DNA of 64,000 bases from Ruegeria sp. HKCCD8929 (GTDB lineage Bacteria > Pseudomonadota > Alphaproteobacteria > Rhodobacterales > Rhodobacteraceae). Numbering within the stretch: position 1 is the stretch's first letter; each line of letters opens with the position of its first letter. Shown one piece after another: positions 25,657-31,225 of this stretch. Below the pieces are notes generated by a model. That model was not told the DNA's origin, made no database searches, and saw only the letters and a list, made by a program, of their open reading frames with translations. The translations under genes and the position numbers were made by a program. The DNA is taken from the NCBI RefSeq assembly GCF_013031405.1, contig NZ_WPZY01000003.1, forward strand, positions 372,001 through 436,000, read 5' to 3'.

Positions 25657-26699
25657 GCGACGATCTCTTCGATCCCCGCCGCCGCCGTCTCGAGCCCGGC
25701 GGCGTCCAGCGCCGGTGCCTCGACCCGTGCAATCACCTCGGCGCCATGGGCCTTGCGGGACTTCAGGTAGGCGGGGTCGTAATGCTGCTCCATCAGCATC
25801 CGGGTCAACCCGAACTTGTCGCCCGCCTCGATCCGCTCGACCCAGCCATCGACCACCTCGTGCCCGCGATGATGGCGCAGCGGGTCGAGCCGAGCGCGCA
25901 ACCGGTCGGCGTCGGAAAGGATATCGTCATAGGCCTCAACCAGATAGACGGTGCGGGCCTCAAGCGGCGCCGACACCTCAATCCGCGGCGCGGCGCGCAG
26001 GGCGTTCCACAGGCTGGGCGGCAGGATGCGGTCTCCGATCTTGGACGATTCCGCCTCGACCACCACGGGCCGCGCCGGATTTAGCCCGCAGAGCACCCCA
26101 GCCAACCGCGATTCGAAGGCTTTCTGGCTGGGCTGCCCGCCCGGCCTCTCGCCCAGCAGCGAGCCGCGATGATTGGCCAGCCCCTCCAGATCCACCACCT
26201 GCACGCCACGCGCGCTCAGCCTTTCCAGAAGTTTGGTCTTGGCCGTGCCGGTATAACCGTCCAGCGCCACCAGGCGGTGCGGCAGCGGATCGTCGTATAG
26301 ATAGCGGTTCACCAGCCGCCGGTAGGTGCGATAGCCACCTTCGATCACTTCGGCGCGCCAACCGATCTGCTGCAGCAACCAAGTGAACGAGCCCGACCGC
26401 TGCCCGCCCCGCCAGCAATAGACCAGAGGCCGCCAACCGCCCTCGTGATGGCTCAGACGATGCTCCACATGGTTGGCCGCATTGCGGAACACCAGCGCCG
26501 CGCCCAGCTTGCGGGCCAGAAACGGGCTCTGTTGCACATAGATGGTGCCGACCCGGGCGCGTTCCTCATTGTCGAGAACCGGCAGGCTAATGGCGCCGGG
26601 CAGATGATCCTCGGCGTATTCCGCCGGGCTGCGCACGTCGATGACGGTGTCGAAGCCGTGAGAATAGAGTTCAGAGAGGGACGAAAATTTTAGTGGCAT
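25647..26699 (-). CDS. selU: tRNA 2-selenouridine synthase SelU/MnmH, 350 aa
   Basis: An N-terminal rhodanese domain (IDVRSPAEYAEDHLPGA; active Cys95 in VYCWRGGQRSGS) is joined to a P-loop domain (LVALDGYTGTAKTKLLERL, about 145-163; later VVVEAESSKIGDR). This architecture is specific to SelU, which swaps the 2-thio for 2-seleno on wobble uridine of Lys, Glu and Gln tRNAs using selenophosphate. The Walker A has Ala where Gly is usual before the Lys. Adjacent selD provides the selenium donor. Confidence 0.95.
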   Translation of the reverse strand: MPLKFSSLSELYSHGFDTVIDVRSPAEYAEDHLPGAISLPVLDNEERARVGTIYVQQSPFLARKLGAALVFRNAANHVEHRLSHHEGGWRPLVYCWRGGQRSGSFTWLLQQIGWRAEVIEGGYRTYRRLVNRYLYDDPLPHRLVALDGYTGTAKTKLLERLSARGVQVVDLEGLANHRGSLLGERPGGQPSQKAFESRLAGVLCGLNPARPVVVEAESSKIGDRILPPSLWNALRAAPRIEVSAPLEARTVYLVEAYDDILSDADRLRARLDPLRHHRGHEVVDGWVERIEAGDKFGLTRMLMEQHYDPAYLKSRKAHGAEVIARVEAPALDAAGLETAAAGIEEIVAQL

Positions 26700-26799
26700 A
26701 GTGCCGGTCTAACGCGCTCGTGTCAGGGGGGAAAGATAGGCGAATCCGATCCCTATCGTTCTTAACAATTCTATGACACAGGTTAAGGACCGACGAGTA

Positions 26800-26805
26800 T
26801 ATAAT
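26800..26805 (+). promoter_or_regulatory. Candidate -10 box of the marR gene
   Basis: TATAAT lies 12 bases before the marR start codon in the 117-bp divergent gap to selU. No convincing -35 hexamer is placed 16-18 bases before it, so transcription may be close to leaderless or activator-aided. Weak call. Confidence 0.3.
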
Positions 26806-26816
26806 TGGTTGTCTGA

Positions 26817-27287
26817 ATGGTATCGATGGACCTTCACCTGATGCCGGGTCATCTGATCCGGCGGCTGAATCAAATCTCGGTCGCGTTGTTCCTGGACCGG
26901 ATGGAGCGTGCCGGGATCAGGCTGACTCCGGTTCAATTCTCTGCGTTGACCGTGATCCGAACGCATCCGGGCATCGATCAGGCCTCGGTTGCGGGGCTGA
27001 TTGGTTATGATCGGGCCACGTTGGGCAAGGTGGTCGACAGGCTTGAGACGCGCGGTCTGGTCACGCGGACCGTGTCCGAAAACGACCGCCGCGCCCGGTC
27101 GTTACGCCTGAGCCCGCAAGGAGAAGCGCTGTTGGATCAGGCCACGCCGCATGTCGAAGCAGTTCAGCCGGATATGCTGATTGGCCTGGATCAAGCTGAG
27201 CAAGAACAGTTTCTGGCGCTGCTGAACAAGATCATCATGGCGGGAAATGACCTGAGCCGCGCGCCTCTGACGCCGAATCGCAACTGA
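26817..27287 (+). CDS. MarR-family transcriptional regulator, 156 aa
   Basis: Winged helix of MarR type: LTPVQFSALTVIRTHPGIDQ, SVAGLIGYDRATLGKVVDRLETRGLV, then the wing VSENDRRARSLRLSPQGEALL (DxRxxxxxLTxxG pattern). Flanking helices form the dimer. Starts at 26817 or 26826 are both possible. Divergent from selU; the regulated target is not evident, though nearby genes (SRAP, GST) are candidates. Confidence 0.9.
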   Translation: MVSMDLHLMPGHLIRRLNQISVALFLDRMERAGIRLTPVQFSALTVIRTHPGIDQASVAGLIGYDRATLGKVVDRLETRGLVTRTVSENDRRARSLRLSPQGEALLDQATPHVEAVQPDMLIGLDQAEQEQFLALLNKIIMAGNDLSRAPLTPNRN

Positions 27288-27301
27288 ACCACCAGCGGTG
27301 G

Positions 27302-27976
27302 CTACTCAGCCTGCACCGGTAATGGCTCGATCAGCTCCGGCCCGCTAGCCCGGTTTGAGTTAACGGCCACCGGAACGCGGTGGAATTGCAGGATGTCCTC
27401 GGCCCCGGGCCGCATCAGAGGCGCTGCGCCCTTGCCCAGCTCGCCGAGCCAGAGCGCCCAATTCTCGGGCTCTAGAATCAACGGCATGCGGTGATGGATC
27501 TGTGATAGTGTCCGGTTCGCGGGTGTGGTGACGATGGCGCAGGTGCTCTGCCGCGTCTCGACCGGCCCCCAGTCCTGCCAGACCCCTGCAAATGCGATGG
27601 GCGCGCCGTCGCGGCGCTGAATGTACCACGGCAGACGCTTACCCTCTGCCGTTTTGGTCCATTCGTAGAACCCGGTTGCCACCAGGATACAGCGACGCTG
27701 GCGGCAGGCTTCACCAAACGCGCGTTTATTGGCAATGGTCTCGGACCGGGCGTTGATCAGCAGCGGGCCGCCATTCTCGGTCTCGTACCACCGCGGTAGG
27801 AAGCCCCAGCGCATCGCCACCAGTTGCCGCCCGGTCTCGCCCGATTTCACCACATGTACCTGATTGGTCGGGCATACGTTGTAGTTGGGCGCATAAGGCA
27901 CAGTATTGGCCACGCGCGCGTCAAAATGCTGGCCCATAGCGTCATTGGGCAGAGTGATGGTGAAACGTCCGCACAT
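27302..27976 (-). CDS. SRAP/HMCES-family abasic-site processing protein (YedK-like), 224 aa
   Basis: The frame is open further upstream, but the true start is MCGRF, since Cys2 must become the N-terminal residue after Met removal to crosslink to abasic sites in single-stranded DNA. Other family residues are present: LLINARSETI (Asn75), GFYEWT (Glu105), and IHHRMPLIL (His161). WGFLPRW and PCxxPTN-like NVCPTNQ also fit. It protects abasic sites at replication forks. It lies 40 bases downstream of the GST gene on the same strand and may share its promoter. Confidence 0.92.
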   Translation of the reverse strand: MCGRFTITLPNDAMGQHFDARVANTVPYAPNYNVCPTNQVHVVKSGETGRQLVAMRWGFLPRWYETENGGPLLINARSETIANKRAFGEACRQRRCILVATGFYEWTKTAEGKRLPWYIQRRDGAPIAFAGVWQDWGPVETRQSTCAIVTTPANRTLSQIHHRMPLILEPENWALWLGELGKGAAPLMRPGAEDILQFHRVPVAVNSNRASGPELIEPLPVQAE

Positions 27977-28016
27977 GGGGCGGAGCTTAACCTTCCGCCC
28001 CGCCCGTCGCCAGAGC

Positions 28017-28622
28017 TCAGGCCGCTTGCGGCGCGGGATTCGCCGCCTGCCATGCATCAAGCGCCTCAAGAGCGGCAATCCAGCGCTGGATGTTGGCGTA
28101 ATTCGCCACCGGGAAATGGCAGGGCTCACGATAGCAAAGGATCGCGCCGACCGAGATATCGGCGGTGGTCATCCCGTCGCCTGACAGCCAGTCGCGGCCT
28201 TTCAGATGCCCATCCAGCACGGCGGCGAACTGGTGGAAGGTCTGGGTGGCTTCCTCCAAATCGACACCCTCATTGCCGAAGATGTAGCGCGAGATGAACT
28301 TGGAGCAGGCCGGGGTCCAGTGGCAGGATTCCCAGAATTGCCAACGCATGATGTCATAGCGCGCATTCGATTTCGGCCAGAGCGGGGTGTCCACCTCGGC
28401 GCACAGCCGGTTGATGATCGCATTCGATTCCCAGAGCGTGGAGCCGTCGTCATATTCCAGCACCGGCACCCTGCCATTGGGGTTGAGCGCCAGAAACTCG
28501 GGCGCGCGCTGCGCGCCGGATTGCAGATCGACGATCTCGGCTGGCAGGTCCAGGCCCAGCAGAGAATTCACAACCAGAACTTTGCGGGTGTTGGGTGAGG
28601 CGGGAAAGACATGCAGTTTCAT
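28017..28622 (-). CDS. Glutathione S-transferase family protein, 201 aa
   Basis: Thioredoxin-like N-terminal domain (MKLHVFPASPNTRKVLVVNSLLGL, NPNGRVPVLEYDDGSTLWESNAI with the cis-Pro and the glutathione-binding Glu-Ser) and an all-helical C-terminal domain with DWLSGDGMTTADISV (N-capping box Asp). Substrate unknown. The start is preceded by AAGGA inside a 40-bp dyad (28626-28665), so expression is probably controlled there. Likely co-transcribed with the SRAP gene. Confidence 0.88.
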   Translation of the reverse strand: MKLHVFPASPNTRKVLVVNSLLGLDLPAEIVDLQSGAQRAPEFLALNPNGRVPVLEYDDGSTLWESNAIINRLCAEVDTPLWPKSNARYDIMRWQFWESCHWTPACSKFISRYIFGNEGVDLEEATQTFHQFAAVLDGHLKGRDWLSGDGMTTADISVGAILCYREPCHFPVANYANIQRWIAALEALDAWQAANPAPQAA

Positions 28623-28625
28623 TGG

Positions 28626-28665
28626 ATATCCTTCTTTTTAACATTTAAGTTAAATAAAAGGATAT
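28626..28665. promoter_or_regulatory. 40-bp dyad over the ribosome site of the GST gene
   Basis: Outer arms ATATCCTT (28626-28633) and AAGGATAT (28658-28665) and inner arms TTTAAC (28637-28642) and GTTAAA (28649-28654) share one centre; 16 of 20 positions pair. The outer arm next to the gene includes the AAGGA ribosome site 7-8 bases before the ATG. It may be a repressor operator or an RNA hairpin that hides the ribosome site. Confidence 0.6.
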
Positions 28666-28700
28666 ACCTTACGAGTCAATCCCCGCCCCGCAATGAAATA

Positions 28701-28724
28701 GGGCCGCACCGGATGGCGCGGCCC
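28701..28724 (-). terminator. Probable intrinsic terminator of the 5'-nucleotidase gene
   Basis: GGGCCGC and GCGGCCC form a 7-bp stem with a 10-base loop; on the minus strand the stem is followed by TATTTCATT. It lies 26 bases after the nucleotidase stop. Confidence 0.55.
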
Positions 28725-28749
28725 CTTGGGCAGGTTCGTAAACCTAGCC

Positions 28750-30327
28750 TTATTTCTGCTTGATCCGCCCGTCCAGATAAGGCTGATACGGCGCGTTCGC
28801 GGCCAGATACTCAGCGGTCACATCCGCCAGATCGGGGCCGAAATCATAAGCGTTCTTGTCGTCGCCCGAGAACATCTTGTAGCCGTCGCCGCCATTGCGG
28901 ACATAGTTGTTGGTCACCACCAGATAGGTCTGCGCCGGGTCAATCGGCACAAAGCCGTCCTCGCTGGCCACCATGACCTCCTGAATGCGACCCTCGTTGG
29001 GAGCAACCGCCGGGTCCCAGGTAAAGGTCAGGCCCGAGACCTGCGGGAACCGTCCCTTGACCTCTTCCACCTGGCTCACACCGTTTTCCAGTGCGTCGAT
29101 GACGCCCTGCCCGCTGATCTCGAAGGTCGAGAGCGTGTTCTGGAATGGCAGCACGGTCAGCACCTCGCCCATGGTCACCTCGCCGGTGTCAATCGAGGCC
29201 CGCAGACCGCCCGAGTTGGCAATGGCGATGGTCACGCCCTGATCGGCAACGCGGTCCAGCATGGCGTCGGCCACCAGATTGCCCATCTCGCATTCCTGCA
29301 CGCGGCATACGGCACGGTCGCCCTCGATCGGTGCGGCAGCATCGGCAACCACCTTGTTGCGGATCTCTTCCAGCGGCTGGGCCAGTTCCTTGATGCGGGC
29401 CACGGTGCCCTCATCCTCGGACACGGTGCCGTCCATGACCAGCGGTTCTCCGACGGCTTCGACCACGTTGCCGTCATCGTCGAAGGTCACGTTCAACTCA
29501 CCCAGGAACTTGCCATAGGCATAGGCCTGAACGATCTGGACGCCGTTGACAACGGTCGGGTACGGGCCCACGGCCTTGTCGGACGTATTGGAGAGATAGG
29601 TGTTGGAATGTCCGCCAACGATCACGTCGACCCCGGTAGTTTCCGCGGCAACGCGCTGATCGACGCCATAGCCGGAATGGCTGAGCACGACGATCTTGTT
29701 CACGCCTTCGGCGGTCAGCCTGTCCACTTCGGCCTGCACTGCGGCTGCCGGATCGCTGAAAGTGATATTGGGACCGGGCGAGGCCAGATCCGGCGTATCC
29801 TCCGGCGTCAGACCGATCAGGCCGATCTTTTCACCGCCTTTTTCGATCACCGCCGATTTCATCAGCGTATCGGCCAGCAGTTCCTCTTTGGTGACATCGG
29901 CGTTGGACATCAGCACCGGGAACTCGACCGCATCCATGAAACCGCGCAGCACTTCGGGCCCATCGTCAAACTCGTGGTTGCCCACGGTCATGCCGTCATA
30001 GCCGAGCTTGTTCATCATCTCGGCGGCAATCTTGCCCTTGTAATAGGTGTAGAAGAGCGAGCCCTGGAACTGGTCGCCGCCATCCACCAGGATCGAGTTT
30101 TCCGCTCGCCCGCGCGCCTCTTCAATGGCGGTCACCAGACGGGCCGAGCCGCCGAAGCATTTGCCCTCGGCATTGTCTTCCGCGCCGCAGCCGCTGTCAT
30201 ACTTGTTGATGGGCTCAAAGCGCGAATGGAAATCGTTGGTGTGCAGGATCGTCAGTTTGTAATCGGCCGCAGCCATGCCGGCGGTCAGGCCAAGTGCGGC
30301 CACCGTGGTCAGAAAACGGGTCAACAT
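28750..30327 (-). CDS. Periplasmic 5'-nucleotidase / UshA-type metallophosphatase, 525 aa
   Basis: Signal peptide at residues 1-21 (FLTTVAALGLTAGMAAA). The calcineurin-like metallophosphatase domain carries the dimetal motifs in order: ILHTNDFHSRFEP, LVDGGDQFQGSLF, VGNHEFDDG, VVLSHSGYG and IVGGHSNTYL. The C-terminal substrate domain has NLVADAMLDR, IANSGGLRASID and VVTNNYVRNGGDGYKMF. It hydrolyses 5'-nucleotides (or cyclic nucleotides or UDP-sugars) outside the inner membrane to feed nucleoside and phosphate uptake. No Pho box is recognised upstream. The nucleoside salvage operon at 46607-51146 would use its products. Confidence 0.92.
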   Translation of the reverse strand: MLTRFLTTVAALGLTAGMAAADYKLTILHTNDFHSRFEPINKYDSGCGAEDNAEGKCFGGSARLVTAIEEARGRAENSILVDGGDQFQGSLFYTYYKGKIAAEMMNKLGYDGMTVGNHEFDDGPEVLRGFMDAVEFPVLMSNADVTKEELLADTLMKSAVIEKGGEKIGLIGLTPEDTPDLASPGPNITFSDPAAAVQAEVDRLTAEGVNKIVVLSHSGYGVDQRVAAETTGVDVIVGGHSNTYLSNTSDKAVGPYPTVVNGVQIVQAYAYGKFLGELNVTFDDDGNVVEAVGEPLVMDGTVSEDEGTVARIKELAQPLEEIRNKVVADAAAPIEGDRAVCRVQECEMGNLVADAMLDRVADQGVTIAIANSGGLRASIDTGEVTMGEVLTVLPFQNTLSTFEISGQGVIDALENGVSQVEEVKGRFPQVSGLTFTWDPAVAPNEGRIQEVMVASEDGFVPIDPAQTYLVVTNNYVRNGGDGYKMFSGDDKNAYDFGPDLADVTAEYLAANAPYQPYLDGRIKQK

Positions 30328-30458
30328 CGATAGAAACTCCCTATTGTCGTTTTGCAGCGATGGTGCGACGGGGACGGCGCGGAGTCAAAGGGTGAGTTGC
30401 GGCGACGTAGCGGGAATTGCCGCTTGATTCCGCCCCGGCCCCAAGGCATCACGCCCTC

Positions 30459-30797
30459 ATGCTGATCTACAAGATTTTCCGGGCGGACGAATGGGCCGCC
30501 CTGCAGGCCCAAAGGGAAACGCCGGGCGCACCGATCGATGTGAGCGACGGGTTCGTGCATTTTTCGACTGCCGAGCAGGCCGCCGAGACCGCCGCCAAGC
30601 ACTTCACCGGGGCCGAAGGGCTGACCTTGCTGGCCTGTGACGCCGACGCGATGGGTGAGGCGCTGAAATGGGAGGTGTCGCGGGGCGGTGCCCTGTTCCC
30701 GCATCTCTACCGCAACATCCGGATGTCGGATGTGGTCTGGGCCAAGCCGCTGCCGCTGGTGGACGGGGCGCATCGCTTCCCGCCGGACGTGGTATGA
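30459..30797 (+). CDS. DUF952-family protein, 112 aa
   Basis: LIYKIFRADEWAALQ, then GAPIDVSDGFVHFSTAEQAAETAAKHF and GGALFPHLYRNI match DUF952, a small cytoplasmic family seen alone or fused to other enzymes, with a beta-barrel/ADP-ribosyltransferase-like fold suggested for relatives. Function unknown. First gene of a run of four coupled genes; its stop overlaps the next start (ATGA). Confidence 0.85.
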   Translation: MLIYKIFRADEWAALQAQRETPGAPIDVSDGFVHFSTAEQAAETAAKHFTGAEGLTLLACDADAMGEALKWEVSRGGALFPHLYRNIRMSDVVWAKPLPLVDGAHRFPPDVV

Positions 30798-31225
30798 GCG
30801 GCCATGTCGATCCCGACCGCGCCCAGTTCGAGGCATTCAAATCGCTCGACAGGGACCAGCCTATCGAAATGCTGAATCTCTTGAAATTCAACGATCTGGC
30901 GGCCTATCCTGAAGGGCACGATCTGGCCGGGGCTGGGCTGAGCGGGGCCGAGGCCTACAGGCGTTATGGCGCCGAGACCGCGCCGATCATCGCACGGCTG
31001 GGTGCCTCGATCCTCTGGCGCGGCGCGTTTCAGACGGTGCTGATCGGGCCGGAGGGTGAGGCCTGGGATGAGATGTTCATAGCCCGGTATCCTTCTGCGC
31101 ATGCGTTTCTCGAGATGGTCACAGATCCCGACTACAAACAGGCCGTCATACACCGGCAGGCGGCCGCCGAAACCTCGCGTCTGATTCGCTGTGCACCCGC
31201 CGAAGGGAGAAGGACATTCGGATGA
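30794..31225 (+). CDS. DUF1330-family protein, 143 aa
   Basis: A ferredoxin-like small protein: [52 protein letters not shown] and [25 protein letters not shown] are DUF1330 hallmarks (EhpR/ABM-barrel type dimer). Its function is unknown. It is translationally coupled on both sides, to DUF952 and to pyrD. Confidence 0.87.

Follow-up and report, generated by a model that had tools for sequence, protein, structure and literature searches.

A predicted ArsR operator in the leader of a glutathione S-transferase gene of Ruegeria sp. HKCCD8929

Repressors of the ArsR/SmtB family are small winged-helix proteins that act on an inverted repeat located before their own gene and other genes, and they are autoregulated. 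Here, we describe a 40-bp inverted repeat in the leader of a glutathione S-transferase (GST) gene of Ruegeria sp. HKCCD8929. It lies in a stretch of 64,000 nucleotides (contig NZ_WPZY01000003.1, positions 372,001 to 436,000), which is referred to as the window. The inner dyad of this repeat, TTAAC-N6-GTTAA, is in all likelihood, judging by comparison of sequences, the operator of an autoregulated, trans-encoded ArsR repressor that controls GST. The candidate resembles the described repressors in its winged helix, its small size, and an inverted repeat that precedes its gene as well as others, and autoregulation is predicted for it too. It differs from them in that it seems to be devoid of the classical metal site.

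A described member of the family is SahR, a regulator responsive to S-adenosylhomocysteine (SAH), whose core targets are the S-adenosylmethionine (SAM)-cycle genes ahcY, metH, metF, and metK (PMC4239095). The similarities comprise the ArsR family, the occurrence in Proteobacteria, the 20-bp palindromic site, and the presence of the regulator's own gene in the core regulon, whereas the SAM-cycle targets of SahR differ from the GST gene, the DUF899 gene, and the AHSA1 cluster found here. Within the Rhodobacterales genomes of that paper, SahR is assigned to the two from Hyphomonadaceae (PMC4239095). In our comparison, which relies on SahR as described, the sites of the studied genome precede GST, ArsR, and DUF899 genes, and in one relative (locus L177) an ahcY-like gene, named by eye, accompanies the site. 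At that locus, the site (L177:2012-2031) has a DUF899 gene on one side and, on the other, the divergently oriented ahcY-like gene, of the SAH hydrolase kind. In Frankia, ArsR-like genes are found in potential operons with AHSA1 genes, with no expression link described (PMC4531530); the pairing is the same here, where an operator and trans targets are proposed. The solved relatives of the candidate ArsR, by sequence, are 7r22, SrnR (7p6f), 3f6v, 3f6o, and SmtB (1r22). A search of an open-licence library gave no paper that describes such an operator or names a DUF899 or GST gene as its target.

The outer arms of the repeat, one of which contains a Shine-Dalgarno-like AAGGA, may be compared with two other designs. 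In IS10-type protection from outside transcription, a hairpin on read-through RNA hides the gene start; it concerns transposon ends and, unlike the GST leader, involves no repressor operator. In the case of I-TevI of phage T4, an operator overlies the late promoter and an RNA structure hides the ribosome-binding site (RBS) only on transcripts coming from upstream, those started at the near promoter being too short to form it (PMC2988022). This is the closest known design to a reading of the GST leader as two layers, an operator and a hairpin, and the promoter geometry predicted here fits it. The I-TevI case differs in that a phage intron gene encodes an autorepressing nuclease and the system was studied by experiments, whereas the hairpin considered here is predicted from sequence in a minority of the orthologues (PMC2988022). 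The elements of the GST leader are as follows.

28638..28653, minus strand: inner dyad, the predicted operator core TTAAC-N6-GTTAA, 0 mismatches
28636-28655, minus strand: 20-bp form of the operator core, flanking A/T included
28626..28633, minus strand: downstream outer arm AAGGATAT with the Shine-Dalgarno-like AAGGA, a perfect complement of 28658-28665
28658..28665, minus strand: upstream outer arm ATATCCTT, within the presumed -35/-10 spacer, sequence not conserved
28674..28679, minus strand: presumed -35 box TTGACT, at the TTGAC position of 15/17 orthologues
28651..28656, minus strand: presumed -10 element TATTTA, 17 nt past the -35 box and overlapping the operator, 3/6 match to TATAAT
28017..28622, minus strand: GST gene, 201 aa (GST_N_3 9.1e-15, GST_C 1.8e-6)

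The set of GST loci comprised 17 after removal of duplicates, the window included. The core was present upstream of all 17 orthologues, being perfect in 13 and containing one mismatch in four, and within the window it occurred, at up to one mismatch, solely in front of GST. A TTGAC motif was located 25-29 nt upstream of the core in 15 of the 17 orthologues, and the 100 nt preceding the core contained it at no other place. The GST leader is read as a promoter with a predicted operator placed over its -10 region. An earlier note on this DNA had named absence of the dyad in front of orthologues as evidence against its own proposal; the comparison was made, and the inner dyad was found in every case, whereas the sequence of the outer part is not conserved.

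The 40-bp dyad was confirmed where that note had placed it, at 28626-28665 in the minus-strand GST leader, with AAGGA (28633-28629, minus strand) inside the outer arm. The distance between the arm and the ATG of GST (28622) is 3 bases, not the 4 given before. The 17-nt arms (28626-28642 and 28649-28665) are 88% complementary and are separated by a 6-nt spacer; 16 of the 20 pairs match, the outermost eight without a break, and the TTAAC/GTTAA core is perfect. With up to 3 mismatches allowed, the 6.08 Mb genome contains the full pattern a single time, and on this basis a repeat or a mobile element was dismissed. Such symmetry had been described as far beyond chance, which does not hold for the symmetry alone: by the 17-nt-arm measure, at least one equally good dyad was present in 17 of 150 windows simulated with matching dinucleotide composition (roughly 1 in 9). 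By the zero-gap measure, 16/20 pairs were reached in 5 of 100 simulated windows, and 16 pairs were never reached in 20,000 shuffles of the dyad's own 40 bases. What decides against chance is conservation. Because the inner dyad stands before 17/17 GST orthologues, its chance origin was ruled out, and the probability that the symmetry is a functionless coincidence is negligible.

The core with its A/T flanks is perfect at two places in this genome: one is the GST leader, and the other precedes an ArsR-family gene located on a different contig (C126:38388-38714, with the site at C126:38361). The same core, with one flank mismatch, lies upstream of a DUF899 gene (C82:179815; Pfam match 1.7e-49). 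The ArsR gene heads a cluster of ArsR, AHSA1, and YCII-like genes (HTH_5 2.3e-11 and AHSA1 9.6e-24; the YCII-like match is below the Pfam cut-off), and its product contains the winged-helix domain, with PF01022 (2.3e-11) and PF12840 (5e-11) above the gathering scores. The core was scored before 36 ArsR orthologues with available DNA (at least 49% identity) and 19 paralogues (below 40% identity). It was perfect in 28 of the orthologues and contained one mismatch in six and two mismatches in two, and in 36/36 the site ended 8-42 nt ahead of the start codon. In the case of the 19 paralogues, none had the core within one mismatch, and seven had it with two. Four paralogues (L126, L127, L132, and L138) have another dyad upstream, TCAACC-N4-GGTTGA. 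Cysteine is absent from the aligned part of 34/36 orthologues, which makes a cysteine-based metal or thiol sensor unlikely, and the sole invariant histidine is His48, inside the conserved SRHLKVLR. By sequence, the classical metal site of the ArsR family seems to be absent.

The distribution of the two genes was compared in 394 family genomes, with cut-offs of E up to 1e-20 for ArsR and E up to 1e-40 for GST. An ArsR orthologue was found in 65 genomes, yet in 6/6 of those carrying GST (Fisher p 1.7e-5, or 1.0e-4 without the window genome, in a test that takes no account of kinship and genome size). Among 11 GST-bearing genomes that were checked, ArsR was present at E <1e-26 in 10, the exception being a metagenome-assembled genome (MAG). 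The perfect A/T-flanked site was detected in 32/65 ArsR-positive versus 20/329 ArsR-negative genomes. Seven further sites in GST-bearing relatives, picked by eye from the site list, precede five DUF899 genes, one ArsR gene, and one gene resembling the DUF1761-like type. Nine extra sites in ArsR-positive genomes include one before DUF899 (L177) and three in G172 that appear chance-like. Eleven sites from ten ArsR-negative genomes were inspected: three stand before other ArsR-like genes and a fourth before a YCII-like one, as named by eye, whereas of the remaining seven, six fall inside reading frames. Among the nine extra sites in ArsR-positive genomes, four (L169 and L171-L173) stand before a gene that we take to encode a small monooxygenase-like protein, and one (L170) before a gene that is presumably DUF1761-like; the site positions include L169:1969-1988, L171:1995-2014, L172:2001-2020, and L170:2004-2023. 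The predicted regulon seems to be wider than GST and DUF899.

According to the proposed mechanism, a dimer of ArsR bound to TTAAC-N6-GTTAA would cover the -10 region and the start of the GST promoter and would keep GST off, perhaps together with SRAP, the next gene downstream, by read-on. The same site upstream of arsR would provide autoregulation, the third site would control the DUF899 gene, and an inducer, probably an organic one, would release ArsR from the site. The outer arms, which are not conserved, might add a second layer, though one that would amount to no more than a hairpin masking the ribosome site on read-through transcripts. The site and its conservation, its placement in the promoter, its sharing among GST, DUF899, and ArsR, and the co-occurrence of ArsR with GST were all read from DNA; the binding of ArsR, the repression, and the inducer are what we infer.

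Several observations weigh against this reading, in addition to the disregard of kinship and genome size in the co-occurrence test. In the GST leader, the presumed -10 element TATTTA fits TATAAT at 3/6 positions only, and a strict consensus promoter scan called no promoter there. Hexamer scoring favoured a different promoter position in 4 of 13 leaders, and the TTGAC box is absent from L040 and L043. On the side of the repressor, the scores of the two ArsR leaders that contain two mismatches do not exceed those of paralogues, and of the 65 ArsR places in the family, the analysis covered the 30 with available DNA. One MAG (G451) has GST and a perfect site, yet its best ArsR match is 9.7e-12, and 33/65 ArsR-positive genomes are without the perfect A/T-flanked site. 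The neighbourhood of the leader contains the following features.

27302..27976, minus strand: SRAP gene (PF02586 7.2e-67), 40 bp downstream of GST
28700..28725, minus strand: terminator-like stem in the interval between the 5'-nucleotidase gene and the GST promoter; weak, 1 found versus 0.4 expected from shuffles
28750-30327, minus strand: 5'-nucleotidase gene, upstream of GST
26817-27287, plus strand: MarR-family gene nearby

The control of both GST and SRAP had been suggested for the dyad. SRAP follows GST at a distance of up to about 100 bp at 9 of the 16 other loci, further away at three, and was not found in the available DNA of four. Since it is close behind GST at nine loci, co-transcription is possible, and with the 40-bp gap SRAP could be at most a co-transcribed passenger of GST. 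An SRAP match was present in 51 other genomes of the same genus, from which 29 loci were fetched, none of them with GST. At these 29 loci, the 260 bp before SRAP contained no site at up to 2 mismatches, and SRAP as a direct target of the operator was rejected; by this comparison, the operator accompanies GST and not SRAP. At 10 of the 29 loci, a 5'-nucleotidase gene is located upstream with no GST in between, the gap being below 180 bp in eight and about 690 bp in two. The order 5'-nucleotidase, GST, SRAP is kept in several other genera, though the same-genus sample is without a close GST: the search of 53 other genomes of the genus gave no close relative, the best identity being 36%. GST relatives at 53-76% identity occur in other Rhodobacteraceae, e.g., Leisingera and Ruegeria, and a search for further plasmid-borne orthologues gave just two Rhizobium relatives at about 39-40%. 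This distribution reflects either loss in the lineage with retention here or re-acquisition.

The nearby MarR-family protein was considered as the binder of the site instead of ArsR. A homologue is present in the available DNA of 3 of the 16 other GST loci (L035, L044, and L045); at the remaining 13, some of which are short, none was found. In the window, the core within one mismatch is present only before GST and was not found before the marR gene, while the site accompanies ArsR genes; MarR is not needed to explain the site, and we consider it a very improbable binder. A look-alike before the MarR gene (26755-26790, 2 mismatches) was set aside, since the pattern to which it belongs is about as frequent as expected by chance (13 matches versus 12.5).

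The preferred reading, an ArsR operator in the inner dyad, leaves room for more than one origin of the outer arms. The upstream arm lies within the presumed -35/-10 spacer and would therefore not be transcribed from GST's own promoter. An RNA switch on GST's own message is unlikely, and an RBS-hiding hairpin could form only on transcripts begun further upstream. No Rfam match up to E 1 was obtained for 26000-31000; no riboswitch is indicated, and this candidate was dismissed. The earlier note had offered a repressor operator or an RNA switch; the operator is retained, the candidate ArsR having the same site, and the switch on GST's own message is considered unlikely. At a threshold of 8 bp, which was picked after the arms had been seen, perfect outer arms are present in 4/16 GST leaders (8 bp in the window, 10 in L036, 8 in L039, and 8 in L044), or in 3/15 without the window. 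Outer-arm sequence is not conserved among GST leaders, and the letters of the four pairs differ, yet all are at offset 0 on the operator axis. None of 240 cross-paired GST flanks reached 8 bp, and the longest run at 20 other offsets was 5. Our initial view that the arms are mere chance was given up after these flank-swapping and offset comparisons.

Two explanations of the arms, both compatible with the ArsR operator, were weighed. The arms may form a hairpin on RNA reading through from the 5'-nucleotidase gene and hide AAGGA there; GST's own promoter would start transcription inside the loop, so that its message, without the upstream arm, would be translated. The predicted fold of the GST leader has an energy of -18.8 kcal/mol (z -4.8, equalled by 0/200 shuffles), with AAGGA in the stem and a contribution of the inner dyad; for the DUF899 leader of this genome, the value is -30.6 kcal/mol, and the outer stem is slightly asymmetric. 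Both this folding and the four differing arm pairs in register speak for such a hairpin, as does the mean left-right duplex energy, which was matched by 18/2000 flank swaps for GST and 82/2000 for DUF899. However, the same swap test was null for ABM-like (422/2000) and ArsR (1615/2000) leaders, an offset-0 arm was present in 0/11 DUF899 and ABM leaders, and 12/16 GST leaders have no arms, including all five of one genus (L034 and L190-L193). The arm of L036 is continuous with the operator itself, that of L039 seems merely to abut the ribosome site, and G-T pairs, which would be a sign of RNA pairing, were not enriched in the outer arms relative to cross-pairs (0.130 vs 0.142). We regard this hairpin as a tentative and rather unlikely addition to the operator. 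Somewhat better placed, though still short of probable, is the explanation that the arms are a mutational by-product, in which fold-back template switching during replication, seeded by the operator dyad, would lengthen the palindrome outwards in individual lineages without serving any function. The arms are sporadic, divergent in sequence, and exactly in register with the operator axis, as this would predict. RNA hairpins reportedly arise and are maintained through template switching (PMC8794818), and in yeast, mutations extending the identity between quasi-palindrome arms were reported (PMC3820800). On the other hand, 0/35 ArsR leaders with the same operator show arms, and the window, L039, and L044 have 1-2 mismatches between inner and outer arms, which outward copying should not leave unless they arose by later mutation. 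A combination of both, a lock on one axis of a chromosomal gene in which a conserved ArsR operator is nested in a fast-changing outer palindrome that hides the RBS on read-through RNA, with the outer layer regained independently, and in unlike sequences, by separate lineages, where the operator itself may have seeded template switching, is predicted with even less assurance and seems doubtful. The DUF899 leader (L054:3015-3036; G000 C82:179814-179835) has the same core and GC-rich outer arms with a 2-nt asymmetry, and at offset 2 it shows eight consecutive pairs; these arms would bury a GGAGG right at the ATG.

The reading of the inner dyad as an ArsR operator would give an uncharacterised ArsR-AHSA1 regulator of Rhodobacteraceae a defined 16-bp operator together with GST and DUF899 genes as targets, and the link between ArsR and operator would offer a direct route to the inducer. 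Should the arms turn out to form a second layer, a single symmetry axis would act both as a protein site on DNA and as a ribosome lock on RNA, and a comparison of orthologues that have arms with those that lack them would make it possible to study the origin of RNA hairpins.
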